From the IMG/VR virus record IMGVR_UViG_3300025120_000266, positions 1 to 32,964 of that record: DNA of 32,964 nt, one strand, 5' to 3'. A program made the position numbers and the translations under genes. This stretch comes from a virus. Below, piece by piece: positions 10,165 to 31,009 of this stretch. Each line of letters starts with the position of its first letter. Position 1 is the stretch's first letter. A model generated the notes under the pieces. It was not told where the DNA came from. It saw only the letters and a list, made by a program, of their open reading frames with translations, and ran no database searches.

Positions 10165-10575
10165 ATGAAATTAAGTATAGAACCATTACAAGAAGGAGAT
10201 TATGAAAACATTCTCTGTGGTTGGTGGAAAGATTGGCGATGGACACCTCCTTCAAAATTATTTTTACCAGACAATGGAATGGGAGGTTTTATGGTTTATG
10301 ATGATGGAATTCCTGTTTGCGCAGGGTTTATGTATCTCACAAATTCTAAAGCAGTATGGTGTGATTGGATTATATCTAATTTTAATTATAAAAATAAACA
10401 AGGAAGGAAAGACGCTATAGAACTTTTAATTAATACCATAGCAACTTTAGCTAAAGAATTAGATAATAAATTTGTATATGCTCTTATTAAAAATAAACCT
10501 TTGGTAGATAGTTATAAAAAAGCAGGGTTTAAAGAGGGTAGTTCTTATACAAGTGAAATGATAAAAATATTATAA
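10165..10575 (+). CDS. GNAT-like acetyltransferase
   Basis: A 136-aa protein with the layout of small phage GNAT proteins. It has an N-terminal strand-helix (KLSIEPLQEGDYENI), a beta hairpin (GGFMVYDDGIPVCAGFMYLT), a strand WCDWIISN, a helix (DAIELLINTIATLAKELDN), and the typical C-terminal Y-K-K-A-G-F segment at 117-122 followed by YTSEMIKIL. The acetyl-CoA pyrophosphate loop is degenerate: only NKQGRKDA is seen where Q/R-x-x-G-x-G/A is expected. It sits between tail and internal-protein genes, has its own promoter-like box, and is followed one base after its stop by the next gene. The substrate is unknown. Confidence 0.7.
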   Translation: MKLSIEPLQEGDYENILCGWWKDWRWTPPSKLFLPDNGMGGFMVYDDGIPVCAGFMYLTNSKAVWCDWIISNFNYKNKQGRKDAIELLINTIATLAKELDNKFVYALIKNKPLVDSYKKAGFKEGSSYTSEMIKIL

Positions 10576-10576
10576 T

Positions 10577-11365
10577 ATGGCAGTAACAACAGCAGCAGTA
10601 GTGGGCATAGCCGCAGCGGGAACCAGTGCGGTTTCGGGTTTTATGAATGCTTCTGCACAAAAAAATGCAGCAGCAAAAGCGGAGAAGGCTGCACAAAGGG
10701 CTATGGCTAATGCTCGTAGACAGGCAGAGGTAGATAATTATGCGGGACTCGATATTCCTTTAGATGCGTTTGCTGCTCAAAACGAAGCTAATATAGCCGC
10801 TGATAAGCAAGCTATGGAAGCCTTACAAGAAGGGGATTCAAGAGCGTTAGCCGCAGGTGTGGGTAGAGTAGGTGCACAACAAGCTGCAGGTACTGAGCAA
10901 ACTCGTATAGCTATGGCAGACGAAATGTTTAATATTGATAAAATGAAAGCTGACTCTAAAGAGGCTATTAAACAACAGATGGTAGCAATGGATGTGGGCG
11001 AAGCTAAGATGCAAGATCAACGAGCAAGAGAGGCGGCACAAATGAGACAACAAGCTATTCAGCAAGGCATACAAGGTATACAAGGAGTAGCGCAAGGTGT
11101 AGGAGATTTAGCTCCTCTATACGGTAAGTCTATGAATGATAAAAGAGCAGGTAAAATTGTAGACAATCAAGATTTCCAAACAGGATATAACGCAAAACGT
11201 ACAGCGGCAGGAATGGATGCTATTGATTTCTCTAATCAATCTCAAAGAGATAGTATTTTTAATCAAGTTTCTAACCAAAGTGTTACAGGTAAAGGTTTTA
11301 GAGGAATGAATAGAAGCGGAAATTATGCGGATATATACAATAATATGACATTCAAAAGCGACTAA
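10577..11365 (+). CDS. Internal virion protein-like, hydrophobic N terminus plus coiled coil
   Basis: A 262-aa protein. Residues 3-24 are a hydrophobic Ala/Gly/Val stretch (AAVVGIAAAGTSAVSGFM), then a long Ala/Gln/Lys/Glu-rich helical region (25-180) likely to form a coiled coil, then a polar C-terminal tail. This layout and its place just before two very large helical proteins match small ejection (internal core) proteins of podoviruses such as T7 gp14, which enter the host envelope during DNA injection. Sequence-level homology to gp14 is not evident. Its TAA overlaps the next ATG (TAATG), suggesting translational coupling. Confidence 0.6.
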   Translation: MAVTTAAVVGIAAAGTSAVSGFMNASAQKNAAAKAEKAAQRAMANARRQAEVDNYAGLDIPLDAFAAQNEANIAADKQAMEALQEGDSRALAAGVGRVGAQQAAGTEQTRIAMADEMFNIDKMKADSKEAIKQQMVAMDVGEAKMQDQRAREAAQMRQQAIQQGIQGIQGVAQGVGDLAPLYGKSMNDKRAGKIVDNQDFQTGYNAKRTAAGMDAIDFSNQSQRDSIFNQVSNQSVTGKGFRGMNRSGNYADIYNNMTFKSD

Positions 11366-13347
11366 TGGCAAGAGATTTAAATATAAAAGGCACAGCGGGT
11401 ATAGTTGATAATGATCAGTATGTATACCGTAAAGAGAGAGATATATCTAAAACTATGGTCGATTGGGGACAAGCGGCTAAAGATATTACTCAAACCATTG
11501 AAACAATTAGAGATGATAGGGCTTCTCAAAAAGCAGACTTAGAAGAAAAATCTCGGACAAGAATGAACGAGCTCGCTAAGCTCGAGCAGTATGATAGTGA
11601 AACCCTAAACACTAAAATGATAGGGGCCAGCCATGAGGGTGGTAATTTTATACAAATGCAAAATGATTTAATGAGACGTGGTCTTATTAATCCTTCTGAG
11701 TTTTTACAATCTACACAACAATTATCAGATAATTTTACACAACTAAAAACAGCAACTAAAGGATGGGATGCTCATTATAAAACAGCAATGAGTAGACTTG
11801 AAAAAGATCCTAAAACAGGGCTACCAACAGCTAATGCTATGGAGCAATTTATAAATGAAGGAATGGCTGGTTTTGGAAATTTAGCTAATTTAGATTTAAT
11901 AGTAAACCCTACTACAGGAACATTATCTTTTCTAAAAAAAGGAGCTGACGAAAACGATCCTGCTAATCATCAAAGTTTAAATACTATTAATGCTCGTATG
12001 ACTCAACGAAGTGATTATTATGATTTAAGTACGGGTGTTCAAAACGAAGTTGAAAATCTTGGAGAGGTAGTTACTTCTGAGTACATGGCCCGACAAGGAG
12101 TTAAAACCACAACAGACTGGTATAAATTAGAGGGAAATAAAGAATTGATGGCAGATTTAGTAGAGACTCAAATGGCTACGGATTCTCAGAAGATTAGTAT
12201 TATGCAAACTCATATGAATCTTTCGTCAGATAATATGACTCGAGATGAAAATGATCCTCGTTTAAATCCTGAGAGTGATGAATATGATGAGTCAACTGTA
12301 TTGGTTGTTGCTAATCCTGATGGATCAGGTTCAGTGAAACCTGTTTTCAGTCAAGCTCAAGAAGATAAAATGAAGGAAGTAGTTGCTAATAGATTTAGAG
12401 CACAGATAGATAAAAAGATAGAGCTTGTTAAAGGTTATCAACCACAACAAGATACGCCTTATACTGGAGGACAGAGAAAAGAAAGAAATCAAAACTTTAG
12501 TTATGTAGATCAAGGTGCAAAAATAGTTTCAGGTACTCAACAAGAATTTCAAGAAGGTGTAACTACTTTATCCGAGGCATATAATAATTCCCCTAAAGGA
12601 CAAAAGAATCCATTAGCAGATAATCCAGTAGATAGAAATTCAGATCCAAACTTTATATTAATTACTTATCAAAGTGGAGAGGTGAAGAAAATTCCTCGTT
12701 ATCAATTAGATAGTAGTGGTGATCCTTTGTTGGATGATAATGGTAATAAAAAACGAAGAGATCAGCAGCAGCAAAATGCAGAGATACTTTCTTATATGTC
12801 ACCAGTAGAAGGATCAACTGACCAGATATATAAAGAGTACAATAAAGAAAACCCAGATGGTATAAAAGATTATGGAGGTAGCGATAAAGAAGTTAACTTT
12901 TTAGGCGAAGGAGAGGCGAAAATAACAGACACCGACTTAACTAACTATCCTGTTCTAATAGATGGTAAGGCAAGTCAATTGTCAGATAAATTGGAAGAGA
13001 TTGCTACGAGTGGTAAGTTTGATGGAAAGAAATTAGACCTTTACAAGACAGAGCTTGATGCGGTTTTATCAAAAGAATTAAAAGATTTAAATCTTCCTTA
13101 TAAAGTTGAGGTAGCTGATGAGTGGTTTAGTACGAATTCCATCTATGTAACCATTGATGGCAATAAAACAAGAATAGAATTCAAGCCTACACAAGCGTCT
13201 AAATTATTATCTGAACTTCAGGAAGCAATTAATACAGCTAAGACAAATATTAGAGATAAGAGAACTGCGGAAAAGGAAAAGAAAAATAAAGAGCAAAAGA
13301 AAAAACAAGACGATAAAAAGAAGAATAAAAAACCAAACGTAGGGTAA
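11365..13347 (+). CDS. Probable internal (ejected) virion protein, helical
   Basis: A 660-aa, strongly charged, mainly helical protein with no membrane segment. It opens MARDLNIKGTAGIVDNDQYV and contains several amphipathic helices, a Gln/Asp/Asn-rich central region, and a Lys-rich C-terminal tail (KKKQDDKKKNKKPNVG). Nothing enzymatic is visible. It is coupled to the preceding 262-aa gene by a TAATG overlap and followed one base later by the 2911-aa gene. The medium plus giant helical proteins after a small hydrophobic one mirror the podovirus internal core proteins (T7 gp14-15-16), which is the only basis for the role. Confidence 0.55.
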   Translation: MARDLNIKGTAGIVDNDQYVYRKERDISKTMVDWGQAAKDITQTIETIRDDRASQKADLEEKSRTRMNELAKLEQYDSETLNTKMIGASHEGGNFIQMQNDLMRRGLINPSEFLQSTQQLSDNFTQLKTATKGWDAHYKTAMSRLEKDPKTGLPTANAMEQFINEGMAGFGNLANLDLIVNPTTGTLSFLKKGADENDPANHQSLNTINARMTQRSDYYDLSTGVQNEVENLGEVVTSEYMARQGVKTTTDWYKLEGNKELMADLVETQMATDSQKISIMQTHMNLSSDNMTRDENDPRLNPESDEYDESTVLVVANPDGSGSVKPVFSQAQEDKMKEVVANRFRAQIDKKIELVKGYQPQQDTPYTGGQRKERNQNFSYVDQGAKIVSGTQQEFQEGVTTLSEAYNNSPKGQKNPLADNPVDRNSDPNFILITYQSGEVKKIPRYQLDSSGDPLLDDNGNKKRRDQQQQNAEILSYMSPVEGSTDQIYKEYNKENPDGIKDYGGSDKEVNFLGEGEAKITDTDLTNYPVLIDGKASQLSDKLEEIATSGKFDGKKLDLYKTELDAVLSKELKDLNLPYKVEVADEWFSTNSIYVTIDGNKTRIEFKPTQASKLLSELQEAINTAKTNIRDKRTAEKEKKNKEQKKKQDDKKKNKKPNVG

Positions 13348-13348
13348 T

Positions 13349-16300
13349 ATGAACGAAGAAATTTTAAAAAATATTTGGGATATATTGTCTTCCGAAGGAG
13401 CGACTGACAGTGATTTTGAAACGTGGAAAACTAATTTTTCAGGAGATGAAGAAATCCAAACTAATGTCCATACCTATTTAACAGAAGGTGGTCACACTGA
13501 AAGTGATTTAGAAACATGGTCTACTAACGTAGGCTTAAAAAAAAAAGACGATTCACAATCTTCTGCCGAAGAGGAAGTTATGGAATCCGATACAGAAGTG
13601 GTGGAACAACCTGGCTCATCGGAGCCTTCAGATCAAGAACTTCCTGATCCCTCTACTCAGACTGTCCCACAAGTAGAAGAAGTACCTACCCCTGAAAATG
13701 AATTTCAGTTTGAGCAGCCAATCCCTACAGATGTTCAAGCTGAAGTAGCAGGTAGTACAAGTGTTGCTCCTGCAGTAGAACCCATTATAGAGGACGAAAG
13801 TATTGTAACAGAAGATGTACAATACGATCCTATGGAGCGTGGTGTTGATGCAACAATTACCTACGATAAAGATGCTACTCCATTTGAAAGATCATTATCT
13901 TATATTACAGGAGACCTTATTGAAAGAGAAGAGGAAGAAGTAATTAACAGAATGAATTATCATTTTGCTGATTACGGATTTGAATTTGAAGAAACAGGGA
14001 TAGGTGATAGTATGATTGTCACTGCAGAAAACGGAGAAGTGTTGGAAGTAGATTTAGATCCTTTTATGGGATTGCGTTCTGAAAAAACATCGGCAGAACT
14101 TAAAGAATTTTTAGATAAAAACAAAGTAGTCTCTCCTGAGATGGAAGCTTTAACCTCTGAATATGATTTGAGTCGTAAAAAGTATTTTACAGCTGCAGCT
14201 ATGACTGATGATATCAAAGAAGTGAGAAGTCAAAGTAGTGAATTAGGCAAAAGATACCAAAATTATTTATCAGAATCAAGTCAGAACCAAGCAGCGATAG
14301 ACAATCTTCTGTCTTTACCTTCAAGAAATGCAGAGCAAACAAAAGAATATAATAATCTTATTGCTGCTAAAAAATTATTAGCAGAAAAGAAAGGCCAATT
14401 AGGGAGGGACTTTAGAGAATTTAGAACCTATTCATCTCAAATAGACAGAGCTGTAGGAGATTATACTACCATGAAAGAGGATGATGGTAATAAGCTTTCT
14501 ACTTTAGGAAAAGGAATGTATAATTATTTTGTTACCCGAGGTATACCAAAGGTTATTGCTTCTGCTTGGGGTGGAGGAGTAGATGGTTTTTATGGTTTGG
14601 CTCAAATGATTGATGAAGATTTTGGGATGGATGAAGATGAAAAAAGAGAAAGATATATAACTATAGCTCAAGACTTAGGGTATGAAGTTCCTGAAAATAT
14701 AAATGATGAAGGAGTTTATGAATCATGGTTAGATAAAATGATGAATACAGGCTTTAGTAAAGAAGTTGAAGAAGGAGAAGATGTTCCATTAACTACTGGA
14801 ATGTTTCCTGATAAAATACAAGAGCAATTAATAACTGAAGGATATGATCCAAGTAGACAAATAAATGCTCGAGGTATAAAGATGTGGAAAAAAGATGGAG
14901 GTTTACTTGGTAATGGAGGATATGTTGATATACCTCTTTATGCTTTTGATAAAACAGTAGGAGAAAGATTAAAAAGATTAGTGTTAGATGCAGAAGTAAA
15001 GTCAGTTAAAAACCCACAAAAAGAAGCTATAAGGGGATCGTTAGATTGGGCTGCCGCTGAGGGTGTTTCTGATGAAAAAATTTCAGAGATGAGTAGAGAT
15101 AGTTTTGTGTACGAAGGACTGTTTGGACTGGCTGAATCAGGGCCTTCTATTCTTGTAGGTTTCTTAGGTAAAAACAAAGGAAAGTCTGTAGACAAAACTG
15201 CTAAATTAACAAAGAGATTAGCTCAAAGATTTAAAAATTATATTACCAGTCCTGGAGCTGTTGCTCAAACTATGAGTTTTAGTTTATTACAAACAGATGC
15301 ATTAATGCAGGAGATGGAAAATGATCCTGACTTTAAATATGTAACTGAGACGGAAAAGAAAGCAATTACTTTTCCTTTAGCTATAACTACAGCGATATTA
15401 GAAAGATATGGTCTAAGAAGTATTGCTCGTAATAAATCTCTTACTACTTCTTTAATGAATCAAATAACTAAAAGACTTCCTAAAGGAGCGACTCCTAAAA
15501 TGTTTACCGATATGGTAAACAAAATAATAAGTAATAATATAGCCAGAGGAGTATATAAATTTTCATCACGAGCTGGTACAGCTGCAGCTGCCGAATTTGA
15601 AACAGGAGCTTTACAACAGGTTTCAGAAATATCAATGAAGAATGTTTGGAACGACATGTATGAAAAAGATATGTTTAACACTCCTGAAATGTGGTCTGAA
15701 GAATTTGGAGACCAAGTGCTGAGAGCAGGATTAGCGGAGTCAGTAGGTGGTTTTGTAATGGGCACACCAGGAGCTTTAATTTCAGCATTTGAAAAGGGGA
15801 ATATTGATAACATACCAGAAGGGATGGTTACTTTGTTTAACGAAATTCGTAATGATAAAGTAACAGTAGAAGCTTATAAGACTCAGCTGGATTTAAAAGT
15901 AGCTAATCAAGAGATGACTAAAAAAGAAGCTGCTCAAGAATTATTAAACTTTCAAATTCTTTCATCCGCTGCTGAAACAGTTAATACCGAAAACGACCTA
16001 ACAGAAAAGCAAACTAAAGATGCTTTAGGGTTAGTATTTTTAAAGAATAAGATTGAAGGAGAGATGGAGGGTATGGATCCTGACCTCGGTACATATAAAA
16101 AGAAACAAGAAATTCTTACAACTATTAAAGATAGGTTATCTAAAATAGGAACTGACGAAGAAATAACAACTAAAACTGAAGACAATGCCATTCAAGAGCC
16201 AAGCACAGAGACGGTGGATGTACAAGAATCTACCGAGGGTAGCCAAGAAGTGGGAGAGCGAGACCCCCAAAGGGGGCCTACCCAAGAAAGTATCGAAAGT

Positions 16301-19300
16301 GAAACAGATACTGACACGCAGACGCAAGAGGAAGTAAGTCCTGAACAATCTGCCGAGCAAATAGAAAAATTAATTACAGAAGAACAAGAAGATTCTAATA
16401 CAGAACCGCAGCCTATACCTGAAGGACAGTTAGAGGTGGTAGATGAGGTAGTGTCTATTAATAAAGCTCAACAAGAAGTAACAGAAGAAAACCCTTTTAA
16501 ACAGGGAGTAATAGAAAGAGTGGGTAAAGCAGCTAAAGCTTTAAAGAAAGTCATACCTAATCTAAAAATTATTATGCATGAGAGTGCAACTGACTTTAAT
16601 AAAGCAACAGGCAGAACAGGAAGGGGAGCTTTGCAAGACGGAGTAGTTCATATTAATTTAGAAAAAGCAACTAATTCTACAGTAGCTCATGAAGCCTTTC
16701 ATATTGTTTTGCTAAGTAAGTTGAGTACAGATGCTGAAGCTCAAAGGGTTACTAAAAGAATGATGGAATCTATTGCTAAAGCATTACCTAAGAATGATCC
16801 TTTATTAAAACAAATTAATGAGTTCACTCAAGGTTACGAGGCTAATATTCAAAACGAAGAAAAGTTAGCAGAAATACTTGGTCAACTATCTGCTAATTAC
16901 AAAACATTATCAGCACCTCAGAAAGGAGTTATTGGTAAATGGATTGATAGAATAGCTAAGGCTTTAGGTTTTAACATATCTGAGTTCACTAAGTCTGATC
17001 AAGATGTTATTGATTTACTTAACACATTAGCATCCAAAGTAACAACAGGAGTTGAGGTTGAAGAGGGAGATATAAAAGTTATAGAAGAGATTAGAGAAGA
17101 TGGAGGCCCTACCGAACAAGGCGATGGTGGTGAAGTTGGAACGGTAAAAGTAAGAGAGCAAAAAGATTCTCGAAACACTCCAAAAGTAGAAACAGATACC
17201 AGACCTTTTGCTAAGTTAATTAAAAATAAAGACCTTGGAGATTTTGATGGTCAACCTTTTGTTACTAATATGTATGACTTTACTACAGCTGGGACGGTAG
17301 ATTTAGGTAATGGTATTACGATAAATCTATTTGGAGGCAAAAGTTATGTTCCGTATATGATGGAAAAACAAGGTAAAAATTTAGGAGAAATTTCTAATGT
17401 AGCTGCGTTTAACACAAAGGCTCAAGCAGAATCTTTTATACGTAACGCAACTGAAGGTGGGGCTAATTTATTTATGCCTCACTCTGGATCTACTGAAGGA
17501 TCATGGCAGTTTCAGCAAGCTATATTTGAACAAATAACTAATGCAGCTTTAAATAATAAAATTCTTTCTAAAAAAGATATAATAAATTCTTTTAATGAAG
17601 TGCTTAGTAATGCGGAAGGAAGAAAAGCATTTAATAGGTTTAAAAAGAAGTTAGGTAAAAATATTAGAAACTTTAATTCATTTGCTAAAGATCCGTTAGA
17701 GATAGTTAGGTTGTTAGATATTAAAAACAACTACTCTCCAGATTTAAGAAAAGCTTTAAACGATAAGTTAGTGGCGAATAAAAAGTTTCAAGAAGCAATA
17801 GGCGTTAAATCAAAAGAAGCATTTGCTAAACGCATGGAAGATGTTTTAAATAAAGGGGTTGAAACAGGTGATATTATGTCGGTTATAGAGTTTGATAATA
17901 CTAATTTTGAAATTAGAAACCCAAAACCAGGTGATGTAGATTATCATCCTTCTTTTGCTTACACTATTTTATCTACTATTAAAGGTATTTATCAGCCTAC
18001 TAAATTTTATAAATCTTATAACATAACAGATACTTATACTAAATATAACATAGGCGGAGAAAGTGTATCTCGTAAATCTAAACAAGGGCCAGAAAAATTT
18101 AAAGCCTCTAATGTTACAAGTAGTGCGGGGGCTATACCGAAAGTGGCTCAGAAGAAACCTGCAATTCGTGAGCAGAAAGAGGCAAGCAGAAAAGACAAGT
18201 TATTTAAGCTTGGTAACCAATATGGTTTAAAACAAAATAACTTTTTCCCTTCAAGCTTATTTAACCCTCAAGCTTTAAGAAAAAAAGCACAAGAGTTAGG
18301 GTATACTTTAGAGGCTTTATATTCTGAAGAAGGATATGATAGGGGTAGATTAACAGGATATGCTTTCTATACTAAACCAAAAGCTGATCGTGGAAGTATG
18401 GTTAAGTTTCCTGCTCAAAGAAAAAGACAGTTTAGTCCAAGGTTTCAAAAAGAATTTGATAAGTTTTCTAATCCTGTAGATATAATAAATCTTGCAAGAC
18501 AAGCAGGCTTTAGTGATAAAGAAATAAGTTACTTTCTTAAAACAAAAAAAGGTTTAAAGGTTAAGGAGATAAAAGACTTAATGGAAGTTAAGGTAGATAT
18601 ATTTGAATCTATGCCTTCTATCTTTGGGGAAATTCCTGGAGGACTTATAGCAGGTCGTAAGCTATACGAAGCTACTATGAATAAGTTTAACGCTTTAGTA
18701 AGTAAAAATTCTAAGTTACCTAAAGGAAAACAGAAAAGTATTTCTTCTCTTATCAATGAGTCTATTGAGTTTATGATGACTCTTAAGCCATATAAGACAG
18801 CAACTGAAGGGGTTGAATCTAAAACATTACCTTCTACTTTACAACAAAAATTACAAGCATCAATGCAAGAAGCATTAGGTGGTAATAAAATTAAGGATGT
18901 AAGTAAGACTATTACTAATCTTAAAAAATTAATTCGTGAAAAAATTAAAGGTGCTCGTGAAATTCGTGACGTAAAAAGACAATTACAAAGAGCTATACGA
19001 GAGATAATGCCTAAGTCAGAGTACAGTAAAGGTGAGGTTATGAGTTTACTAAGAACCATACAAGAGGCTGAACCAGCTTGGCTTAAAGGAAATTTAAGAA
19101 ACCTTATTCAACAAGTTGAGGAAATGGGTGCTAAAAAGAATGTTGCTATTCTTGATAAAGCTATTAAAAAAATTCTTGATAAAAAGTTTGAAGTAACAGT
19201 TGGAGGAAAAAAAGTAGTAGTCAAAATAGATGGTGAAACAGCTAAAGTAATTTCATCTATTAAAGATAAACTATATAAAGCAAATGAAATACAAGAGGAT

Positions 19301-22084
19301 ATTATTCAAGAGCAAACTAAAATAATGGAATCCATTACAGAGTTAAATGAAAAGTTAGAGCTTACCGAACAAGAAGAAACAGATCTGTTAATTTTAAACA
19401 TTGCTTTAGGAATAAATAGTTCTAAGTTAATGGAGGATAATAACCCTCGTAAAGCTGACCAGTTAGCACAATTATATAATGATTTAAAAGCATTAATTAC
19501 TATTGGTCGTAATAACTTTAAAGACGCTGCTAAAGAAAGGTCAGATAGGTATGCTGAAAATACTACTAAATTTTATAAAGCCCTTACTAATACTAAAGAA
19601 GATGTAGACTTAAGAGATCCAGAGGTTAAAGAAAAGATTTTAGCTGCTATTAAAGCAAGAAGAGATAGTAAAAAATCTACTTTTGGTAAAACTCCAATTG
19701 GTATGCACTTAAACTACATCAAAGAAAACATGACAGGTTTTTTAAGGAGAGGAACTCTTGGGTTAAGTCAATTAACTTCTGAGTTAGATAAGTCTCCTGG
19801 TGCACAATTTGAGGGTTTCATTAGAGATTTTATATATCGTAGAGTAAATGAATCAACACGAGTATATAAAGAAAATGAGATGGCTTTAAACCAACTTTTC
19901 ATGGAGCAGTCAGAAAAATATTTAGGTAAAAATTATAGAAAAATAATAAAAGAATACAAACAAACAAAATTAAATTTTGAAGATCCAAATTTAAGTAAGT
20001 ATTTAAAAAATCCACAAGCAGTAAAGGAAGCTAAAGAAAAATTGGATAACGATCCTACTTCTACTAATACAGAAAATTATAATGAAGTGATGAGACAAAA
20101 CATTCCTTTTGGTGATTTAACTCCATTACAATTACAATACCTTTATTTTCAATATAAGCAACAAGACACTCATGCTGGTTTTGCTACAGCTTTAGGAAAA
20201 AATTTTGAAAGCATAATGGATGGATTGAGTGAGCATTTTGAAAACACATATCCTGAATTATTAGAGTTAGGACAATGGCAAGTAGATGTTTTACTCCCTT
20301 CTCTATACGAAAAGTATAATAAGGTTTATAAGAAAATATATAACACTGACCTACCTCAAAGAGATAACTATTCTGGTAAAACATTTAGATTAGTAGAAGG
20401 TAAAAAAGGAGAGATGGTTCCTGAAAAAAATAACCCATTATCTTTGTTTGGAGAGAACGGAACGTCACAAATGTCTATGAATGTGATTGGTAACTCTACC
20501 ATGTTGACTATAAAAAATGATAATGAAATTTTACCTGTTGATGCTTTTGATGCTATTTGGAGTTATGTAAGAGATATGGAACATTTCCATGCCTATGCAG
20601 AAAACATGAATGAAATATCTAAAGTATTTAACAATGATATTATAAAGAAAGAAATTATTGCTCAACATGGTATGGAAGTTTATAAAGCTATTAGAGATTC
20701 TTTAATGGCTACAGCTCAAAGAGGAGCTAATCAATCAGACACTACAGTTAATTTTACTAACAGATTAAACAGTGTGTTTATATTTAATAAACTTGCTCTC
20801 GGATTTACAGTTTATTTAAAGCAGTTAACATCGGTTATTACTTATGGTAATTATATTGGGTATGGTAACTGGTCTAAAACTGCGGCTACTATGGGACCAA
20901 AAGAATGGGTTAAGACGTGGAAAGAAATTTCAGAAGATTCTGTTTATTTAAAATATAGATACTACCAACAGATTAGTAGAACTATTGAGGCATATAGTGA
21001 AAGTAGTATGCAAGAATATACTCCAGGAGACCAAGGCGATAAAATAGTAAGAGCTTTAATGTTTAATATTAAGGCTGGGGATAAACAAGCTATACTTTTA
21101 GGTGGTATTCCTAACTATGTATTCTTAAAAAAGAAATACGAAAAAACAATGACTGCCGAGGAAGCTAAAAAGAAAGCTTTAATAATGTTTGAAGAGCAAA
21201 CAAAAGAAGTTCAGCAGTCCTCAGACAAGCAAGATAAGGATGCTTTGCAAAATCAAGGAGGTTATGTACAAATGTTTAATATGTTTATGTCAGCACCGAA
21301 AGCTTACTTCCGTCAGTTATTTGGAGGATATAGAGAGTTTGGGAGAAATATAAAAGATGGATCAGGTAAGGGAAGTATAGGTCAAAACGCCAGAACTATT
21401 GCTCTGTATCAATTTGCCTTACCAATGTTATTCCAATGGGTAGGATCAGGATTCCCTATGCCAGGTGATGATTGGGATGAGGAAGATACTAAAGACCAAT
21501 TTAGAGCTGCCACGTTGAGTGTCTTTAATTCTATTTTTGTGTTAGGGCAGATAGCAGAATCAGTAGCTGACTATGCATCAGGTAAGCCATGGTATGCTGA
21601 CATGAAACAGTTCCCAATATTTGATATAACTAAAGATATAATTAAGGCTTATGATAAAACTAATAACAAAGATCCTAAGAAAGCAGAAGCTGCCTGGAGA
21701 TCTTTTGTTTATTCGGTCATGCCTTTAACTGCATTAGGAGGTGTGCCAGGAAAGTTTGCGGGTGCTCCATTCCCTACGATGGAAAAGTTAGCTCTTAATA
21801 TTAAAAAAATACTTGATGGTGGTGGTAGTCCTAAAGAAGTAATGTTAAGGTTGTTTAACTATTCAGACTATGTTATTGAGGGAGGTAAAAAGAAAACAAA
21901 ACCTAAAGGTAAAACTCTTAATAAAACTGAGATGAAAAAATATTTCCCAGAACTTATGGAAGCACAAGAAGAGCTTGAAAATTCTCCAGAGATGAAAGAA
22001 ATTAAAGAAATGCAAAAAGAAATGAAAGCTGAAGAGAAGGCTATGAGAGAAGAAATGTTAGACCAAATGTTTGATAATAATTAA
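13349..22084 (+). CDS. Giant polyvalent virion protein with zinc-metallopeptidase motif
   Basis: A 2911-aa protein covering about a quarter of the window. In order it has: two short helical repeats (residues 6-66, each with G-x-T/H-x-S-D-x-E-T-W); an acidic Pro/Glu linker (about 70-160); helical regions with hydrophobic patches near 395-425 and 590-605; and a second acidic linker (about 930-1045). A metallopeptidase-like domain follows with HEAFH at 1114-1118, a plausible downstream Glu ligand in NEEKLAEILGQL, and an upstream GVVHINLEKA strand. Next comes a region at about 1283-1590 starting DTRPFAKLI, then long helical regions. The C-terminal part (about 2470-2850) has hydrophobic segments (LYQFALPMLFQWVGSGFPM) in the style of LPD38 of large phage polyvalent proteins. 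It is probably packaged and ejected with the DNA; the peptidase could process proteins or cut host targets. Confidence 0.7.
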   Translation: MNEEILKNIWDILSSEGATDSDFETWKTNFSGDEEIQTNVHTYLTEGGHTESDLETWSTNVGLKKKDDSQSSAEEEVMESDTEVVEQPGSSEPSDQELPDPSTQTVPQVEEVPTPENEFQFEQPIPTDVQAEVAGSTSVAPAVEPIIEDESIVTEDVQYDPMERGVDATITYDKDATPFERSLSYITGDLIEREEEEVINRMNYHFADYGFEFEETGIGDSMIVTAENGEVLEVDLDPFMGLRSEKTSAELKEFLDKNKVVSPEMEALTSEYDLSRKKYFTAAAMTDDIKEVRSQSSELGKRYQNYLSESSQNQAAIDNLLSLPSRNAEQTKEYNNLIAAKKLLAEKKGQLGRDFREFRTYSSQIDRAVGDYTTMKEDDGNKLSTLGKGMYNYFVTRGIPKVIASAWGGGVDGFYGLAQMIDEDFGMDEDEKRERYITIAQDLGYEVPENINDEGVYESWLDKMMNTGFSKEVEEGEDVPLTTGMFPDKIQEQLITEGYDPSRQINARGIKMWKKDGGLLGNGGYVDIPLYAFDKTVGERLKRLVLDAEVKSVKNPQKEAIRGSLDWAAAEGVSDEKISEMSRDSFVYEGLFGLAESGPSILVGFLGKNKGKSVDKTAKLTKRLAQRFKNYITSPGAVAQTMSFSLLQTDALMQEMENDPDFKYVTETEKKAITFPLAITTAILERYGLRSIARNKSLTTSLMNQITKRLPKGATPKMFTDMVNKIISNNIARGVYKFSSRAGTAAAAEFETGALQQVSEISMKNVWNDMYEKDMFNTPEMWSEEFGDQVLRAGLAESVGGFVMGTPGALISAFEKGNIDNIPEGMVTLFNEIRNDKVTVEAYKTQLDLKVANQEMTKKEAAQELLNFQILSSAAETVNTENDLTEKQTKDALGLVFLKNKIEGEMEGMDPDLGTYKKKQEILTTIKDRLSKIGTDEEITTKTEDNAIQEPSTETVDVQESTEGSQEVGERDPQRGPTQESIESETDTDTQTQEEVSPEQSAEQIEKLITEEQEDSNTEPQPIPEGQLEVVDEVVSINKAQQEVTEENPFKQGVIERVGKAAKALKKVIPNLKIIMHESATDFNKATGRTGRGALQDGVVHINLEKATNSTVAHEAFHIVLLSKLSTDAEAQRVTKRMMESIAKALPKNDPLLKQINEFTQGYEANIQNEEKLAEILGQLSANYKTLSAPQKGVIGKWIDRIAKALGFNISEFTKSDQDVIDLLNTLASKVTTGVEVEEGDIKVIEEIREDGGPTEQGDGGEVGTVKVREQKDSRNTPKVETDTRPFAKLIKNKDLGDFDGQPFVTNMYDFTTAGTVDLGNGITINLFGGKSYVPYMMEKQGKNLGEISNVAAFNTKAQAESFIRNATEGGANLFMPHSGSTEGSWQFQQAIFEQITNAALNNKILSKKDIINSFNEVLSNAEGRKAFNRFKKKLGKNIRNFNSFAKDPLEIVRLLDIKNNYSPDLRKALNDKLVANKKFQEAIGVKSKEAFAKRMEDVLNKGVETGDIMSVIEFDNTNFEIRNPKPGDVDYHPSFAYTILSTIKGIYQPTKFYKSYNITDTYTKYNIGGESVSRKSKQGPEKFKASNVTSSAGAIPKVAQKKPAIREQKEASRKDKLFKLGNQYGLKQNNFFPSSLFNPQALRKKAQELGYTLEALYSEEGYDRGRLTGYAFYTKPKADRGSMVKFPAQRKRQFSPRFQKEFDKFSNPVDIINLARQAGFSDKEISYFLKTKKGLKVKEIKDLMEVKVDIFESMPSIFGEIPGGLIAGRKLYEATMNKFNALVSKNSKLPKGKQKSISSLINESIEFMMTLKPYKTATEGVESKTLPSTLQQKLQASMQEALGGNKIKDVSKTITNLKKLIREKIKGAREIRDVKRQLQRAIREIMPKSEYSKGEVMSLLRTIQEAEPAWLKGNLRNLIQQVEEMGAKKNVAILDKAIKKILDKKFEVTVGGKKVVVKIDGETAKVISSIKDKLYKANEIQEDIIQEQTKIMESITELNEKLELTEQEETDLLILNIALGINSSKLMEDNNPRKADQLAQLYNDLKALITIGRNNFKDAAKERSDRYAENTTKFYKALTNTKEDVDLRDPEVKEKILAAIKARRDSKKSTFGKTPIGMHLNYIKENMTGFLRRGTLGLSQLTSELDKSPGAQFEGFIRDFIYRRVNESTRVYKENEMALNQLFMEQSEKYLGKNYRKIIKEYKQTKLNFEDPNLSKYLKNPQAVKEAKEKLDNDPTSTNTENYNEVMRQNIPFGDLTPLQLQYLYFQYKQQDTHAGFATALGKNFESIMDGLSEHFENTYPELLELGQWQVDVLLPSLYEKYNKVYKKIYNTDLPQRDNYSGKTFRLVEGKKGEMVPEKNNPLSLFGENGTSQMSMNVIGNSTMLTIKNDNEILPVDAFDAIWSYVRDMEHFHAYAENMNEISKVFNNDIIKKEIIAQHGMEVYKAIRDSLMATAQRGANQSDTTVNFTNRLNSVFIFNKLALGFTVYLKQLTSVITYGNYIGYGNWSKTAATMGPKEWVKTWKEISEDSVYLKYRYYQQISRTIEAYSESSMQEYTPGDQGDKIVRALMFNIKAGDKQAILLGGIPNYVFLKKKYEKTMTAEEAKKKALIMFEEQTKEVQQSSDKQDKDALQNQGGYVQMFNMFMSAPKAYFRQLFGGYREFGRNIKDGSGKGSIGQNARTIALYQFALPMLFQWVGSGFPMPGDDWDEEDTKDQFRAATLSVFNSIFVLGQIAESVADYASGKPWYADMKQFPIFDITKDIIKAYDKTNNKDPKKAEAAWRSFVYSVMPLTALGGVPGKFAGAPFPTMEKLALNIKKILDGGGSPKEVMLRLFNYSDYVIEGGKKKTKPKGKTLNKTEMKKYFPELMEAQEELENSPEMKEIKEMQKEMKAEEKAMREEMLDQMFDNN

Positions 22085-23883: not shown

Positions 23884-23957
23884 GGTCTTGTAGCTCAACT
23901 GGATAGAGCAACAGCCTTCTAAGCTGTAGGTTATAGGTTCGAGTCCTATCAAGATCA
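23884..23957 (+). tRNA. tRNA-Arg (anticodon UCU)
   Basis: A full cloverleaf can be drawn. The acceptor stem is GGTCTTG with CAAGATC (one G-U pair), the D arm is GCTC...GAGC, and the anticodon arm is ACAGC-CTTCTAA-GCTGT with anticodon TCT. The variable loop has five bases, and the T arm is ATAGG-TTCGAGT-CCTAT with the conserved TTCGA. The discriminator base is A at 23957, and CCA is not encoded. It reads AGA, the Arg codon used often in the A/T-rich genes here. It lies on the + strand inside an otherwise - strand gene cluster. Confidence 0.93.
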
Positions 23958-23960
23958 CTT

Positions 23961-25386: not shown

Positions 25387-26622
25387 TTACAAATTTACAA
25401 AATCCCTTTTGAAGTGTGTTAGGGTATAATCTTTCTTCTTAATAACCGCCTTATATATATCTTTTTCAATACCCCCTTTACTAAATATCCAATACACTTC
25501 ATTCTTTAATCTATCTTTAGTTGTCATACGATCCCTTGACTGCCAATAAGATGTGGCACTAAAGTCAATATTATAGTATACTAAAGCGTGAGCCTTACGT
25601 AAAGATATACCTTCTCTTCCACTCACTATTTGTAATGCAATGTTTTTATTAGTGGTATTAAAACAATCTAAGTCATTACATATGTCATCTCCAAATACTT
25701 CTTTCAAAGCATTCAGCTCCTCTTTAAATTTATAAAATATTCCTACCTTAAGTCCTTTAAATCTTTTTTTAATAAACTTAGCTTTATTTAAATCTAATAC
25801 CATAGAGTTTCCACTTTCAAACTTAATAGTCCCACTACATAACTGATGAACTTTAGTCATTAACTTAACAGATGTGTCCGCTAATATAACTTCAGACTCC
25901 CCTTCTACAACTAAATCTTTTTTAAGTTTCTTAATTAAGTCTGTGGTTTTATTCTCCATCTCTACCTCTAAAATTTGTTCATTGGTATGAACTACAAACC
26001 CCGCTTCTTTCTGACTAAACCTAATAGTATACGGGGCCATTGCTAATATAATTTTTTTATTCCCTTTTGAATAATCATTTATATATAACCCTCCAATCTT
26101 TTTTTTGACCACACTGATATATGTGTGAGCAAAGTCATAAAAATTTCTGAAACGACTAAAAGGATTCTTAGGAATAAAATATACTTGATGATACATTTGT
26201 GAATAAGCCTCTGGCGTAGGCGTTCCGCTAAGTAAAATAACATAAGGATTATTATGAAACACCAACTCCTTAACTTTTTTAGCTCTACCACTTGGTTTAG
26301 GAAATGCTCCCATGCCATGAGCCTCATCACATATAATAACATCCCATCCCTTTCTTGGTAATTTATGAATTGATTCATAATTTATCACAGTCATTTCATA
26401 GTGTGGTTGTAATAAATCATAGTCTGCTTGTATACTCGATATAGCTTTCTTTTTAGTAATAAACAAAACCTTTTTTATTTCTTGTAAACGATCACATATT
26501 CCTAAACTTGTTAAAGTTTTTCCAGTTCTAACTTCCATTGCTAAATAAAGGAAACGATGTAGTTTAATAATACCAACACCATTAGCAATAATATTTTTCT
26601 GATAATCTCTTAGCTCAATCAT
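25387..26622 (-). CDS. SF2 DNA helicase (SNF2/DEAD-like)
   Basis: A 411-aa superfamily 2 helicase. A Q-like N-terminal segment (LRDYQKNII) is followed by motif I MEVRTGKT at 29-36. Next are motif Ia (VLFITKKKAI), the DEAH box at 99-102 and motif III LSGTPTPEAY at 131-140. The C-terminal RecA lobe has motif V-like SGREGISLRKAHALVYYN and motif VI-like SYWQSRDRM. The ATPase residues are intact. SNF2-like helicases of this size are common in phage replication clusters, paired with VRR-NUC. Its ATG overlaps the primase-helicase stop by four bases (ATGA), indicating coupling. Confidence 0.88.
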   Translation of the reverse strand: MIELRDYQKNIIANGVGIIKLHRFLYLAMEVRTGKTLTSLGICDRLQEIKKVLFITKKKAISSIQADYDLLQPHYEMTVINYESIHKLPRKGWDVIICDEAHGMGAFPKPSGRAKKVKELVFHNNPYVILLSGTPTPEAYSQMYHQVYFIPKNPFSRFRNFYDFAHTYISVVKKKIGGLYINDYSKGNKKIILAMAPYTIRFSQKEAGFVVHTNEQILEVEMENKTTDLIKKLKKDLVVEGESEVILADTSVKLMTKVHQLCSGTIKFESGNSMVLDLNKAKFIKKRFKGLKVGIFYKFKEELNALKEVFGDDICNDLDCFNTTNKNIALQIVSGREGISLRKAHALVYYNIDFSATSYWQSRDRMTTKDRLKNEVYWIFSKGGIEKDIYKAVIKKKDYTLTHFKRDFVNL

Positions 26623-29030
26623 ATTCCTAATTCAGATTTTTCGTTATAATGTGTTTTGTCTACAAACTCTATCCACTTTCCTAACATATCCTTACCTTCT
26701 AAGGGATTACATTGAAAAGAGTATTGAGAATAAGAAACTAACCATTTACCAAAACGAACTCTACTTACCGCCATCCTGGATTTAGGAGCATAATCTGGAT
26801 ATTCATTAGTAAAATCCATATACAAATCATTACTATATATTCTTTTGTTTTTTACGAGTTTAGAATTTTTTACCGAATCAATAACTCCACACCATTCTAT
26901 AAACTCATGAGAGGTTTCAGCAGAAAACTTTCTTGTTTTTAAATTTACAAAGTCACTCTTAAGAAGTCCTTTATCTAAATATAGTTGTAGATTTTTAATC
27001 ATATAATTATCAAACTGACACCAATCATTATCGTCCCACTCTCCAAACATTAATTTACCAAACTCTATAAGGGGAGTAAAATCTTTGGTATAAAACTGAC
27101 TTAATTCTAACTCCCACTTTCTTCTTTCAAAAGATGATCCTTTACCTTTAATAGCATAATTAGTAGTGATTGCCACCTTTGGCGATTTACTAAATGGTAT
27201 TTTAATTGCATCTTTATTTTTCTTTTCAAGAGTTAGACCTTCAGTAACTACACTAAATAATCTCTCAAAGTCAAAATGTTTTTTTACATCATCAAAGCAA
27301 AGTATCTGAGTATCAGCAGAAACTAATTGATAAGCAAAAGATCTTTCAAAATTAAAAGACTTACCATCTATAACTACTAACTTTTTCATATGAGTTAATC
27401 CGTTCATAAATAATCCCTTACCCGTTCCTCCTTCAGGGTTGTCTGATATAATCTCATCATTTAATATTGTAGCGGGACAATAAGATAAATTTTTCCATCC
27501 ATGTAATAAAAATCCTATAGTAGATTCCATAGAGCTAACTCTTTTATCAGTAGAACCCGATATATTGTGTATAAATGTTTGATAATCACAATTAGTTACT
27601 TCACATACATCAAAAACCCTATCAATCACATGATCCTTCCAAACATACCCCCCTAAATCTAAGTAATCAATAGGTGTTATTTCATCCTTAGTTATCTTAA
27701 CCGCACAATTAGTATAATACAAATAAGCAGTATGTTTATTGTCTGCAATAAAAAACACATCTATGGATGACAACAAAGTAAGAAACTCTTCTCTAAAATA
27801 TCTCGTGCATTCGGCAAAATAATTATAAACTGATATATCATCTATATCTAATAAATAACTTAAAACAAAATCTTTTATTTCTTTTTCAGAAGTATGATCA
27901 ATTAAGTTATTAGTAACCCTTACAAACACATAGTTCTTACTACCTTCTGGATTAAACTTATAAAATCCATTATCCTCTAAAAACTTTTTAAAAGATATAT
28001 GAATAATTTTAACTACTCCTTTATCAGATTTACTCCAAAACTTTTGTTTATCTTGTTCGTCCTCTAATCTTCTAATAACATTTTCTAATACAGAATCATC
28101 TACCTCCATATTCTTCTCTAAATTAGATTTTATTTCAGAAGGAGCTATACCTTTTCTTAGTTTTTGTTTTACATTATTTACTTTCTCTTCATCCTCATAA
28201 TACTTAGTTCCAAAATTTTGTACTTGTTTATATGCAGAATAAATTGTTCTTTTTATTTCGCTTTGAGGAAAATCTTTACTCACAAAATTACCCATTACAT
28301 ATTCGGCTAATGTTTTGTTGACACCAAAGTCATTAAAGGCAGATGCTAAAATATATACATTATTATTTCTCTCGCCATTATTTAATCCATACTTTCTCTC
28401 CCACCATTTTAAAAGAATTTCTACAATCTTATTCTCATCAGTAATAGGTATAGTTTGAACATCTTTATGTTTAACCACCTCTTGGTATTCTTGCTCAATA
28501 ACTTGATTAAATACACTTGATTGTTCATTAATAAAAATTAATGGATCGTAAGACTCATAACATACTCTTGATACATTCTTACAGGCTACATCAAAAAACT
28601 CACTATTATAATGATGTTGTAAAGAATTAAAAAATTGTTTATGAGTTTCAATCTCATTAGGAATTTTAACTAACACCTTTAGTCCTAATCCACTTGGTGA
28701 GATAAAGACTGAGTAGGTGTATCTATCTTTAGTTAGTCTTTCTTTTTCCTCAAGCATTAATTTCTCAGAAGGAAAATTATCAAAGTCTAAACATATAAGT
28801 CCACTATGCTTGTTTAATGATGAATCATTTCTTTTTGTAAATTTACCACTAAAACATATTGCTGGTAATGATTGCTTTAATTCGTTTCTTACTTCTTTGT
28901 CTTTCTCTCCCCTTATTAATTTTACTATGTCTTGGGATGCTCCTTCTTGAATCCTTTCTAATATTTTTGATACATCTCTATAAAAAGGTTGAGCTGTATC
29001 TTTAATGTCTTTAAATATTGTTATTTCCAT
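26619..29030 (-). CDS. Primase-helicase (VirE/BT4734-like N terminus plus SF3-like helicase)
   Basis: An 803-aa fused replication protein. Residues about 60-185 match the VirE/BT4734-like N-terminal domain, related to archaeo-eukaryotic primases: HSGLICLDFDNF with catalytic-type acidic residues, YSVFISPSGLGLKVLVKI, and ACKNVSRVCYESYDP. The C-terminal half carries an SF3-type ATPase with Walker A DNPEGGTGKGLF (about 529-540), Walker B ILCFDD and a sensor-like segment (KVAITTNYAI). Such proteins prime and unwind phage DNA. It lies downstream of the AT-rich repeat region proposed here as an origin. Its gene order (SSB-like, primase-helicase, SF2 helicase, nuclease) is coherent for replication. 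Confidence 0.82.
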   Translation of the reverse strand: MEITIFKDIKDTAQPFYRDVSKILERIQEGASQDIVKLIRGEKDKEVRNELKQSLPAICFSGKFTKRNDSSLNKHSGLICLDFDNFPSEKLMLEEKERLTKDRYTYSVFISPSGLGLKVLVKIPNEIETHKQFFNSLQHHYNSEFFDVACKNVSRVCYESYDPLIFINEQSSVFNQVIEQEYQEVVKHKDVQTIPITDENKIVEILLKWWERKYGLNNGERNNNVYILASAFNDFGVNKTLAEYVMGNFVSKDFPQSEIKRTIYSAYKQVQNFGTKYYEDEEKVNNVKQKLRKGIAPSEIKSNLEKNMEVDDSVLENVIRRLEDEQDKQKFWSKSDKGVVKIIHISFKKFLEDNGFYKFNPEGSKNYVFVRVTNNLIDHTSEKEIKDFVLSYLLDIDDISVYNYFAECTRYFREEFLTLLSSIDVFFIADNKHTAYLYYTNCAVKITKDEITPIDYLDLGGYVWKDHVIDRVFDVCEVTNCDYQTFIHNISGSTDKRVSSMESTIGFLLHGWKNLSYCPATILNDEIISDNPEGGTGKGLFMNGLTHMKKLVVIDGKSFNFERSFAYQLVSADTQILCFDDVKKHFDFERLFSVVTEGLTLEKKNKDAIKIPFSKSPKVAITTNYAIKGKGSSFERRKWELELSQFYTKDFTPLIEFGKLMFGEWDDNDWCQFDNYMIKNLQLYLDKGLLKSDFVNLKTRKFSAETSHEFIEWCGVIDSVKNSKLVKNKRIYSNDLYMDFTNEYPDYAPKSRMAVSRVRFGKWLVSYSQYSFQCNPLEGKDMLGKWIEFVDKTHYNEKSELGI

Positions 29031-29542: not shown

Positions 29543-29710
29543 TTAAAAGTTTTTATAAATGATTTTTTCCAACTGATTCATTGTAGCCTCCATGAGATTA
29601 TCCCTTTCAGCTTGTGTGTTGAGGTCGGTTGGAATTTGCAACCACACCACACTTTTCTTTTTATTAAAGTGTTTCTTTAATAATATACGATTCAATATCT
29701 TCTTCAGCAT
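29543..29710 (-). CDS. Small hypothetical protein (55 aa)
   Basis: An ATG at 29710 opens a 55-aa frame (MLKKILNRILLKKHFNKKKS...) ending TAA at 29543-29545, two bases before the SSB-like ATG. It overlaps the last 47 bases of the RecE-like gene in another frame. It has a basic amphipathic N-terminal helix and an acidic/amide-rich second half ending QLEKIIYKNF. It fills what would otherwise be the only gap between the two neighbours and has cluster-typical spacing. No family recognised. Confidence 0.5.
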   Translation of the reverse strand: MLKKILNRILLKKHFNKKKSVVWLQIPTDLNTQAERDNLMEATMNQLEKIIYKNF

Positions 29711-30401
29711 CTTTAATATAAAATTTGTTATACACTTCTATTGCTTTCTCTACCTTTTCTTTTCCATACTGCAAGAATGTTTCTGATGGATAGTATATTC
29801 CTAACTCAAAAGTCATTTTATCTACCACATAAAAAACTAATGGCTTGTCAAAAAATTGTTGATATAGGTATGCTTGACTATCATAGTTATATTTTCTGGC
29901 ACTATACTTAAAGTCTTTAATGTTAGATGTAGTTTTAAGATCTATTAAAATATCTTTACCTACTATATCTGCCTTACCTTTCCATTCTACTCCCATAACC
30001 TTATGAATTGCTGGGATTTCGTATCTATTTTCTTCATCATAGATTGCCTCATAAAATTCTAAGTTATTATTCATAGTAGCAATTGCTTTATCGGTTTGTT
30101 CTTTTTCTTTTAGTAGCATCATAATATCTCTCCCATGCTCAAGGATTTCTTCCTTATACTTTTTAGTATTTCTACTTGATGCATCTATACCGATAAACTC
30201 TGTACTACCTACTTTCTCTGGTTCTAACATTGCAGTATGAAAGTATCTTCCAATTAACATTGCTTTAGTTATGTCCTTTGGTTTTCTAAAATTTTTAGGA
30301 TCATTAAGTAATGTAATTATATCTGAATTAGATAAGTATTTCTGACCAAACTCACCATAGTAATGGCTATCCTCTTTTAGTAATTGTAAATCCTTATCCA
30401 T
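29664..30401 (-). CDS. RecE-like PD-(D/E)XK exonuclease
   Basis: A 245-aa protein of the RecE/exodeoxyribonuclease VIII-like PD-(D/E)XK family. The early helix has YLSNSDIITLLNDP and the family-typical LIGRYFHTAMLEPE (49-62). The active-site core is GKADIVGKDILIDLKTT, with D145, D154 and K156. YNYDSQAYLYQQF follows, with the Q-x-x-x-Y motif (Q176, Y180). Such enzymes resect double-stranded ends to leave single strands for annealing. The adjacent upstream gene encodes a DUF1071-type annealing protein, the usual partner. The shared base with that gene (TAATG) supports coupling. Confidence 0.85.
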   Translation of the reverse strand: MDKDLQLLKEDSHYYGEFGQKYLSNSDIITLLNDPKNFRKPKDITKAMLIGRYFHTAMLEPEKVGSTEFIGIDASSRNTKKYKEEILEHGRDIMMLLKEKEQTDKAIATMNNNLEFYEAIYDEENRYEIPAIHKVMGVEWKGKADIVGKDILIDLKTTSNIKDFKYSARKYNYDSQAYLYQQFFDKPLVFYVVDKMTFELGIYYPSETFLQYGKEKVEKAIEVYNKFYIKDAEEDIESYIIKETL

Positions 30402-31009
30402 TACTTAATAGCTTTAGATAATTCTTTCTTAACTACCGCCTTGATATTATACTTTGCCTCTAAATTCTTTACAATCTTAGGTAATCCTAACTCTTTATTA
30501 GATCCAATGTAATTAAGCACTTTACTCCAATTTGCATCTCCTATATCTAATGTTATTTTAGTTGATGCTTTAGGAGTAGGAGTTTTACTAACTGGTTGAG
30601 GTGCTTTTACTACTGATATAGTATCTTCTCCAATCCACAAACTTAAACCTAACCCATGCATAGCAATAGCCTTAGCGGTAGATCTTTGTATTGCAGTATT
30701 TACATCCATAGAAGAAACCTTTTCAATAGGTATAGAATTATTACGAAAGTCCATTACTGGTAGGTAATCAATATGCTCCATTTCATTAATAGTTATACCT
30801 ACTTTTACATAAGCAGTTTTACCATCAGTAAAAAAGTTTAGTCCAGTGTGTTCACTTTCATATACTTTTCTTTGTGCATTAGGAAACTCTGTTTTTATCA
30901 TACTCCAAGCAGTTGCCCAAGACATATAGTCAAATTTTCCTTTCTTATCAGTTTTCCCCTTGATAGAGATAGACGATAACTCTTTAAAGATGTTTTTCTT
31001 CTTTTCCAT
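30401..31009 (-). CDS. DUF1071-type single-strand annealing protein (Rad52-like)
   Basis: A 202-aa protein matching the DUF1071 pattern. It has YMSWATAWSMIK at 28-39, a mid-domain beta region with YVKVGITIN, LPVMDFRNNSIP at 82-94, and the conserved helix AIQRSTAKAIAMHGLGLSLW followed by IGED (105-128). Residues 135-150 form a Pro/Lys/Thr linker (KAPQPVSKTPTPKASTK), and the C-terminal 50 residues form a small helical domain. These proteins anneal complementary strands in phage recombination. It stands directly upstream of the RecE-like nuclease, forming a RecE/RecT-type pair. Confidence 0.8.
   Translation of the reverse strand: MEKKKNIFKELSSISIKGKTDKKGKFDYMSWATAWSMIKTEFPNAQRKVYESEHTGLNFFTDGKTAYVKVGITINEMEHIDYLPVMDFRNNSIPIEKVSSMDVNTAIQRSTAKAIAMHGLGLSLWIGEDTISVVKAPQPVSKTPTPKASTKITLDIGDANWSKVLNYIGSNKELGLPKIVKNLEAKYNIKAVVKKELSKAIK

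Follow-up and report, generated by a model that had tools for sequence, protein, structure and literature searches.

A giant phage protein with a zincin-like metallopeptidase, an exchangeable cargo slot, and a tetrapeptide enriched in the linkers behind the peptidase

Polyvalent proteins were described by Iyer et al. in 2017, who already proposed that such proteins are processed by their own metallopeptidase (PMC5512222). Among the closest described systems, cleavage of P1 DdrB precedes its packaging, and N4 virion RNA polymerase enters the particle in one piece (PMC5512222). Because the N4 protein has a metallopeptidase (MPTase) domain and is nevertheless packaged uncut, cleavage of such proteins need not occur, or might occur only after ejection. 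Separately, the ejectosome proteins of T7 and PhiM1 bear wall-degrading domains (PMC11440229, PMC8954989). We found no description, since the 2017 proposal, of a cleavage signal in polyvalent proteins. Here, we describe a giant phage protein, P0001, whose relatives carry exchangeable cargo behind a conserved metallopeptidase, and we report that the tetrapeptide R[EKQ]QK is strongly enriched in the linkers downstream of this peptidase. Polyvalent proteins themselves were already known; what is new is the motif that marks these linkers. A limited literature search, which does not prove novelty, found no description of an R[EKQ]QK joint code, of the domain that we call D2, or of a link between polyvalent proteins and ejectosomes.

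The window that we analyzed is a whole virus record of 32,964 bases. It encodes P0001 in one unbroken frame, with exactly the length and bounds given by a previous interpretation of the DNA (hereafter, the sequence-only reading). That reading had also classed the product as a polyvalent-type phage protein, and we agree: P0001 joins unrelated parts (the peptidase, D2, and a helical chassis) in one very large multidomain chain, it is encoded among late and virion genes, and by sequence it is a member of the polyvalent-type proteins of phages. P0001 itself has no Pfam domains above the cut-off, and the catalogued effector domains appear in its relatives only. Similarly, P0001 was unmatched in a search against PHROGs, and several of the neighboring genes match virion structural families. 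By description, P1 DdrB and N4 virion RNA polymerase are likewise of giant size, are injected or packaged, and contain MPTase domains, but their cargo and C-termini are different.

On viral contigs, P0001 has relatives over its full length at 55-63% identity. Searching with the peptidase region yielded 77 loci, and searching with the C-terminal region yielded 79 loci. In bacterial genomes, a single query found no relatives and an alignment query found one MAG contig; none were found in the plasmids that we searched. Iterated profiles indicate that many of the relatives have a common chassis, which consists of N2, N3, an acidic linker, the peptidase, a slot, and M4-M5-C1-C2 (Table 1). P0001 and its relatives differ from the described polyvalent proteins in having a constant chassis around a single defined slot for cargo, a pairing of the peptidase with D2, and R[EKQ]QK at the joints. 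The sequence-only reading had placed the peptidase between two acidic linkers, which matches the composition of the protein: the linker before the peptidase is 27% D+E and 38% P/Q/S/T, and the linker after it (residues 1235-1285) is short and acidic (29% D+E). Relatives with the same chassis have a comparable acidic linker of ~100-200 amino acids. The next linker of P0001 (1570-1625) is basic (25% K+R).

Table 1. Features of the giant gene and of the genes before it. Coordinates are those of the window; residues are those of P0001.
Feature	Residues	Coordinates	Strand	Evidence
GNAT-like protein, 136 aa, at the position of T7 gp13		10165..10575	+	gene order; hhalign profile resemblance to T7 gp13 is weak (P of ~0.001)
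262-aa protein, at the position of T7 gp14		10577..11365	+	phrog_13764 (virion structural protein); gene order
660-aa protein, at the position of T7 gp15		11365..13347	+	gene order
P0001, giant polyvalent-type protein, 2911 aa		13349..22084	+	ORF and translation; ATG to stop, single unbroken frame
N2, N-terminal chassis region	161-466	13829..14746	+	profile common to dozens of giant proteins
N3, N-terminal chassis region	636-917	15254..16099	+	shared profile
Acidic Glu/Pro/Gln/Ser/Thr linker, without R[EKQ]QK in P0001	918-1045	16100..16483	+	composition
Zincin-like metallopeptidase domain	1054-1234	16508..17050	+	profiles, conservation, structure model
HEAFH, predicted to supply two zinc ligands and the general base	1114-1118	16688..16702	+	invariant in relatives
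E1170-E1171, candidate third zinc ligand, in downstream helix	1170-1171	16856..16861	+	conservation; model helix 128-145
REQK junction motif, joint of peptidase and D2	1269-1272	17153..17164	+	motif counts
D2, undescribed domain	1283-1605	17195..18163	+	profiles, model, database searches
REQK junction motif, joint of D2 and remainder	1607-1610	18167..18178	+	motif counts
D3, small region	1610-1690	18176..18418	+	common to L003/L006 by profile
M4-M5-C1-C2, helical C-terminal chassis	1706-2847	18464..21889	+	C-terminal alignment, structure model, BFVD matches to giant phage proteins
C-terminal part aligning with ejectosome core chains 8vb2_A and 9vvp_O	2134-2467	19748..20749	+	structural comparison

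HEAFH occurs once in P0001, and several lines of evidence support the view that the surrounding domain is an intact zincin-like metallopeptidase with a predicted active site. Across 71 distinct relatives, HExxH is conserved in 71 of 71, Y1163 in 100%, E1170 and E1171 in 99%, and H1101, which lies at the end of the strand preceding the HExxH helix, in 87%; this set is biased toward HExxH because that motif was part of one of the two patterns used in the search. In a set that was fetched via the C-terminal region only, every domain that spans the site keeps HExxH (42 of 42), and E1171 is present in 44 of 44 and E1170 in 43 of 44. The near-invariance of HExxH and of E1170/E1171 is what an active zincin would show. 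In the structure model, HEAFH sits on one helix and the pair of glutamates on a later helix. The HExxH motif is intact, as had been claimed from the sequence, and its conservation far exceeds what chance would give. The structural matches of the domain have low Z and include M1 aminopeptidases, Zmp1, an SprT-type protease, collagenase, and selecase; several unrelated zincins match model residues 4-184 at Z of ~4, which is below the level that would prove a zincin fold. Sequence profiles matched IrrE and DUF5700, both weakly. Polyvalent proteins with a zincin-like MPTase (PMC5512222) share these features: they are giant late-gene products with HExxH, a histidine on the upstream strand, and a glutamate on a later helix. 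In one relative (L067), residues 1490-1586 of the giant protein repeat part of the peptidase domain.

The slot between the peptidase and M4 measures 472 amino acids in P0001; among the relatives, its length spans 44 to 1029 amino acids. The slots of relatives match ART-PolyVal, Kinase-PolyVal, RadC, LPD23, DUF3293, Phage_L5_gp82, and other domains, and several of these were already catalogued in polyvalent proteins, with which the relatives share ART-PolyVal, Kinase-PolyVal, RadC, and LPD23 as cargo (PMC5512222). Two relatives, L004 and L002, have ~480-530 additional residues in the slot, with LPD23 in both and DUF3293 in L004. In another relative (L023), identity to P0001 is 97% at residues 1101-1200, falls to ~20% at 1301-1600, and returns to 67% past residue 1700. 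These comparisons of sequences show that the content of the slot is exchanged while the chassis stays constant. As a separate observation, the 97% stretch (16649-16948, + strand) lies next to chassis sequence that is only ~50-70% identical, as well as to the divergent slot, and points to recent recombination within the peptidase.

In P0001, the slot carries D2. The sequence-only reading had pointed to a distinct conserved region that starts at DTRPFAKLI (1283) and had suggested that residues 1283-1590 might be an undescribed effector domain. The region from 1283 is confidently folded in the model (pLDDT mostly 85-98). Profiles built from three seeds found D2-like sequence, in diverged versions, right behind the peptidase in up to 64 loci/79 slots, a count that includes duplicate contigs; the farthest version (the L023 type) was recruited by iterated profiles and could reflect profile drift. 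Sequence searches with residues 1283-1605 found no relative in Pfam, PHROGs, or the PDB, which tells against a known effector at the level of sequence. Foldseek found no significant match in the PDB for a model that holds two domains rather than D2 by itself, and BFVD gave a weak match to a protein with a MuF C-terminal domain. The profiles indicate that D2 forms an undescribed family of domains found directly behind this peptidase in most of the relatives, so the suggestion of a distinct, undescribed domain held up. Its conserved residues are D1310, G1329, G1330, A1353, R1467, and H1533, with S1535 nearly so. This pattern suits an enzyme; D2 may act as an effector.

While comparing linkers, we saw that REQK recurs at the joints between domains. 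In the part of the proteins after the peptidase and outside D2, R[EK]QK occurs at 45 sites versus 2.24 expected, and it is near expectation in the other regions. To replicate this, we used 44 proteins that had played no part in the discovery of the motif: R[EK]QK occurs 17 times in their slots (0.80 expected), not at all before the peptidase, in the peptidase, or in D2, and once in the chassis (2.82 expected). When all 4-mers in the slots were ranked by an enrichment score, RQQK was first, REQK second, and RKQK fourth, so we write the motif as R[EKQ]QK. In the slots of 108 proteins, R[EKQ]QK occurs 84 times, as compared to 3.74 ± 1.80 in shuffled sequences; the threefold larger amount of sequence outside the slots contains 31 sites. 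With strict borders, there are 68 sites in slots (1.63 expected), 1 in D2 (0.37 expected), and 0 in M4 (3.57 expected). Permuting the motif gives sequences that seldom occur in slots (2-5 occurrences). The sites represent 58 contexts with dissimilar flanks, and 58 of the 108 proteins have at least one exact match in the slot. Known cargo can be bracketed by the motif: DUF3293 lies between sites at 1966 and 2132 in L004, and Phage_L5_gp82 lies between sites at 1387 and 1581 in L030. Overall, sequence counts show that R[EKQ]QK is strongly enriched in post-peptidase linkers, where it looks like a signal for freeing cargo.

At the level of DNA, the 45 R[EK]QK sites are encoded by 28 distinct 12-mers, and the DNA flanks are unrelated. 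This diversity implies that the motif is selected as protein, and it rules out a DNA-level recombination repeat as the source. We also considered seven chassis proteins that lack this clade of peptidase, which is a small control: five of them have no R[EKQ]QK, and the other two (L137 and L167) have a single site in common, set in matching context. Six of the seven (L103, L104, L106, L137, L148, and L167) have HEMGH, HEFGH, or HEYGH instead and mostly lack R[EKQ]QK; they offer a natural test of whether R[EKQ]QK belongs to the HExFH clade. The sequence-only reading had proposed that the peptidase may cut its own protein at the flanking linkers. The enrichment behind the peptidase lends specific support to one part of that proposal; the acidic linker ahead of the peptidase does not, with just 2 sites across all relatives when strict borders are used (0.89 expected).

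The giant gene closes a podovirus late operon. At ~60 loci, the genes before it are homologs of the 262-aa and 660-aa genes, and these are in turn often preceded by the 136-aa GNAT-like gene. This order parallels T7 genes 13-14-15-16 by position and size, and in following small and medium core-type genes the giant gene is like those for the core proteins of the T7 gp16 and PhiM1 type (TEP; 7eyb, 8vb2, and 9vvp). The structure model of the C-terminus is almost wholly helical. Its top match by Z is a chain of the PhiM1 ejectosome, 8vb2_A (Z of 6.2 over 204 aligned residues), which falls short of proof of homology for helical proteins. The same C-terminal stretch matches 9vvp_O, from the core proteins of phage E1004, over 206 residues (Z of 5.8, also below the level of proof). 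No other match listed comes close to these two in alignment length. The 9vvp chain Gp29 is homologous to T7 gp16 by sequence, and we assume, from the number of chains, that chain O is a further copy of Gp29. In BFVD, the C-terminus matches giant phage proteins, several of which are named polyvalent. The model therefore suggests a weak resemblance of the C-terminus to ejectosome proteins of the T7 gp16 type.

Comparisons with single sequences of T7 gp14, gp15, and gp16, which are a weak test, found no sequence similarity to these proteins; hhalign against one T7 gp16 sequence, likewise a weak test, gave a probability of 0.1%. Besides lacking detected similarity to T7 gp16 (about 1300 aa), P0001 differs from it in being 2911 aa and in carrying a metallopeptidase and cargo rather than a transglycosylase, for which a Pfam search of P0001 found no match; an N-terminal lytic transglycosylase is not present in all proteins of the gp16 type. 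The C-terminus had also been described from the sequence as being in the style of LPD38, and we could not substantiate this: with E allowed up to 10, none of the 12 records matched LPD38 (PF18857), in a search that had no positive control because the control genomes were equally silent, and none of 24 aligned C-termini matched it.

Taken together, these observations are consistent with P0001 ranking as the largest of a podovirus's ejection (inner-core) proteins and doubling as a carrier of payloads. The N-terminal part and the metallopeptidase would remain one unit, followed by at least one cargo domain (here, D2) and then by a helical C-terminus that would work as a core or tunnel protein, as in T7 gp16. 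After packaging or ejection, the metallopeptidase would cut the linkers at the R[EKQ]QK marks. With nominal borders at the ends of the motifs, the predicted pieces of P0001 are an acidic N-terminal and peptidase part (1-1272; ~141 kDa, pI 4.5); the putative D2 effector, which is basic (1273-1610; ~38 kDa, pI 9.5); and the remaining 1301 amino acids up to the C-terminus (1611-2911; ~149 kDa, pI 9.2), a piece near the size of T7 gp16 (1318 aa). We give even chances to P0001 being an ejection protein with exchangeable cargo behind an embedded protease and with cut marks at the joints; presence in the virion, ejection, cleavage, cleavage at R[EKQ]QK, and the effector role of D2 are inferred. Several points weigh against this reading: an exact R[EKQ]QK is found in the slots of only 58 of the 108 proteins, the single T7 sequences showed no similarity, the structural Z of ~6 is below the level of proof, and the N4 polymerase is packaged uncut. 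The broader claim, that the family consists of polyprotein-like carriers whose zincin reads an R[EKQ]QK code and frees effectors at entry, with D2 as a new effector family that accompanies the peptidase, is somewhat more doubtful.

R[EKQ]QK might instead be a binding or spacing element of the linkers (for instance, a docking site for DNA, the portal, or a core protein) or a trace of the joining of modules. In favor of this, R[EKQ]QK is a basic sequence and modules are plainly swapped; however, the varied codons and unrelated flanks do not fit a DNA recombination repeat, and there are multiple sites per protein at joints that are not homologous. We consider this explanation unlikely. It also seems rather unlikely that the protein stays uncut and that the metallopeptidase is an effector against host proteins or opens the envelope in place of the transglycosylase of T7 gp16. 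Zincin effectors are known from conflict systems (PMC5512222), and T7 gp16 and its relatives have wall-degrading domains (PMC11440229, PMC8954989) of which Pfam finds no transglycosylase here, but these roles would leave the restriction of the motif to post-peptidase joints unexplained.

Alternatively, R[EKQ]QK could be a true cleavage mark that another enzyme cuts, either the prohead protease of the phage or one of the host's proteases, with the metallopeptidase targeting something else. Prohead proteases are common in tailed phages, the sites are basic and lie in linkers, and the site that L137 and L167 share, in the same context, accompanies a different peptidase (HE[MYF]GH). Nevertheless, the sites lie almost solely downstream of the peptidase and within its own chain, and most of the chassis proteins without this clade lack the motif. 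Furthermore, in the other ORFs of at least 200 amino acids from the same loci, R[EK]QK is not enriched (1 site versus 2.75 expected), which rules out a general head-maturation mark. Cutting by another protease is, in our judgment, quite unlikely.

A strict tetrapeptide at the joints behind one clade of peptidases makes the self-cutting proposal of 2017 directly testable. If the embedded metallopeptidase does the cutting, R[EKQ]QK could serve in many giant phage proteins to locate where unknown effectors start and end, and a defined, sequence-specific metallopeptidase would be gained; the D2 family would be a new candidate effector. The pairing of peptidase and D2 extends to the Elemovirus phages of Flavobacterium. 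A "structural protein" of Flavobacterium phage elemo (QMP85520.1, 3667 aa) matches P0001 over the peptidase and the following region only (34% identity across the peptidase and the start of D2). It has the same gene order, with RQQK behind D2. Unlike in P0001, the chassis profiles N2, N3, and M4-C2 were not detected in it, and DUF3293 lies ahead of the peptidase. For the "structural protein" of Gundel, we found no proteomics in the main text of its paper.

Other genes in the window include two small phage genes (24167-24682 and 31387-31683, both on the - strand), each with a Bac_DnaA_C helix-turn-helix (E of 3e-9 and 4e-10). Based on this domain, they might encode binders of DnaA boxes, perhaps for initiating replication or for interfering with the host's DnaA. 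A PDDEXK-like DUF3799 protein (29664-31009, - strand) adjoins a Sak single-strand annealing protein, and the two are likely a recombination pair. An 803-aa protein (26619-29030, - strand) is primase/helicase-like: it contains a BT4734-like N-terminal domain and a DUF5906 domain and matches PriCT-1 weakly. Its gene adjoins a gene for an SNF2-type helicase (25387-26622). Finally, a tRNA-Arg (TCT) lies between genes on the opposite strand (23884-23958, + strand). It would read AGA, which encodes the arginine at 24 of the relatives' 45 R[EK]QK sites and is thereby the most common arginine codon there.
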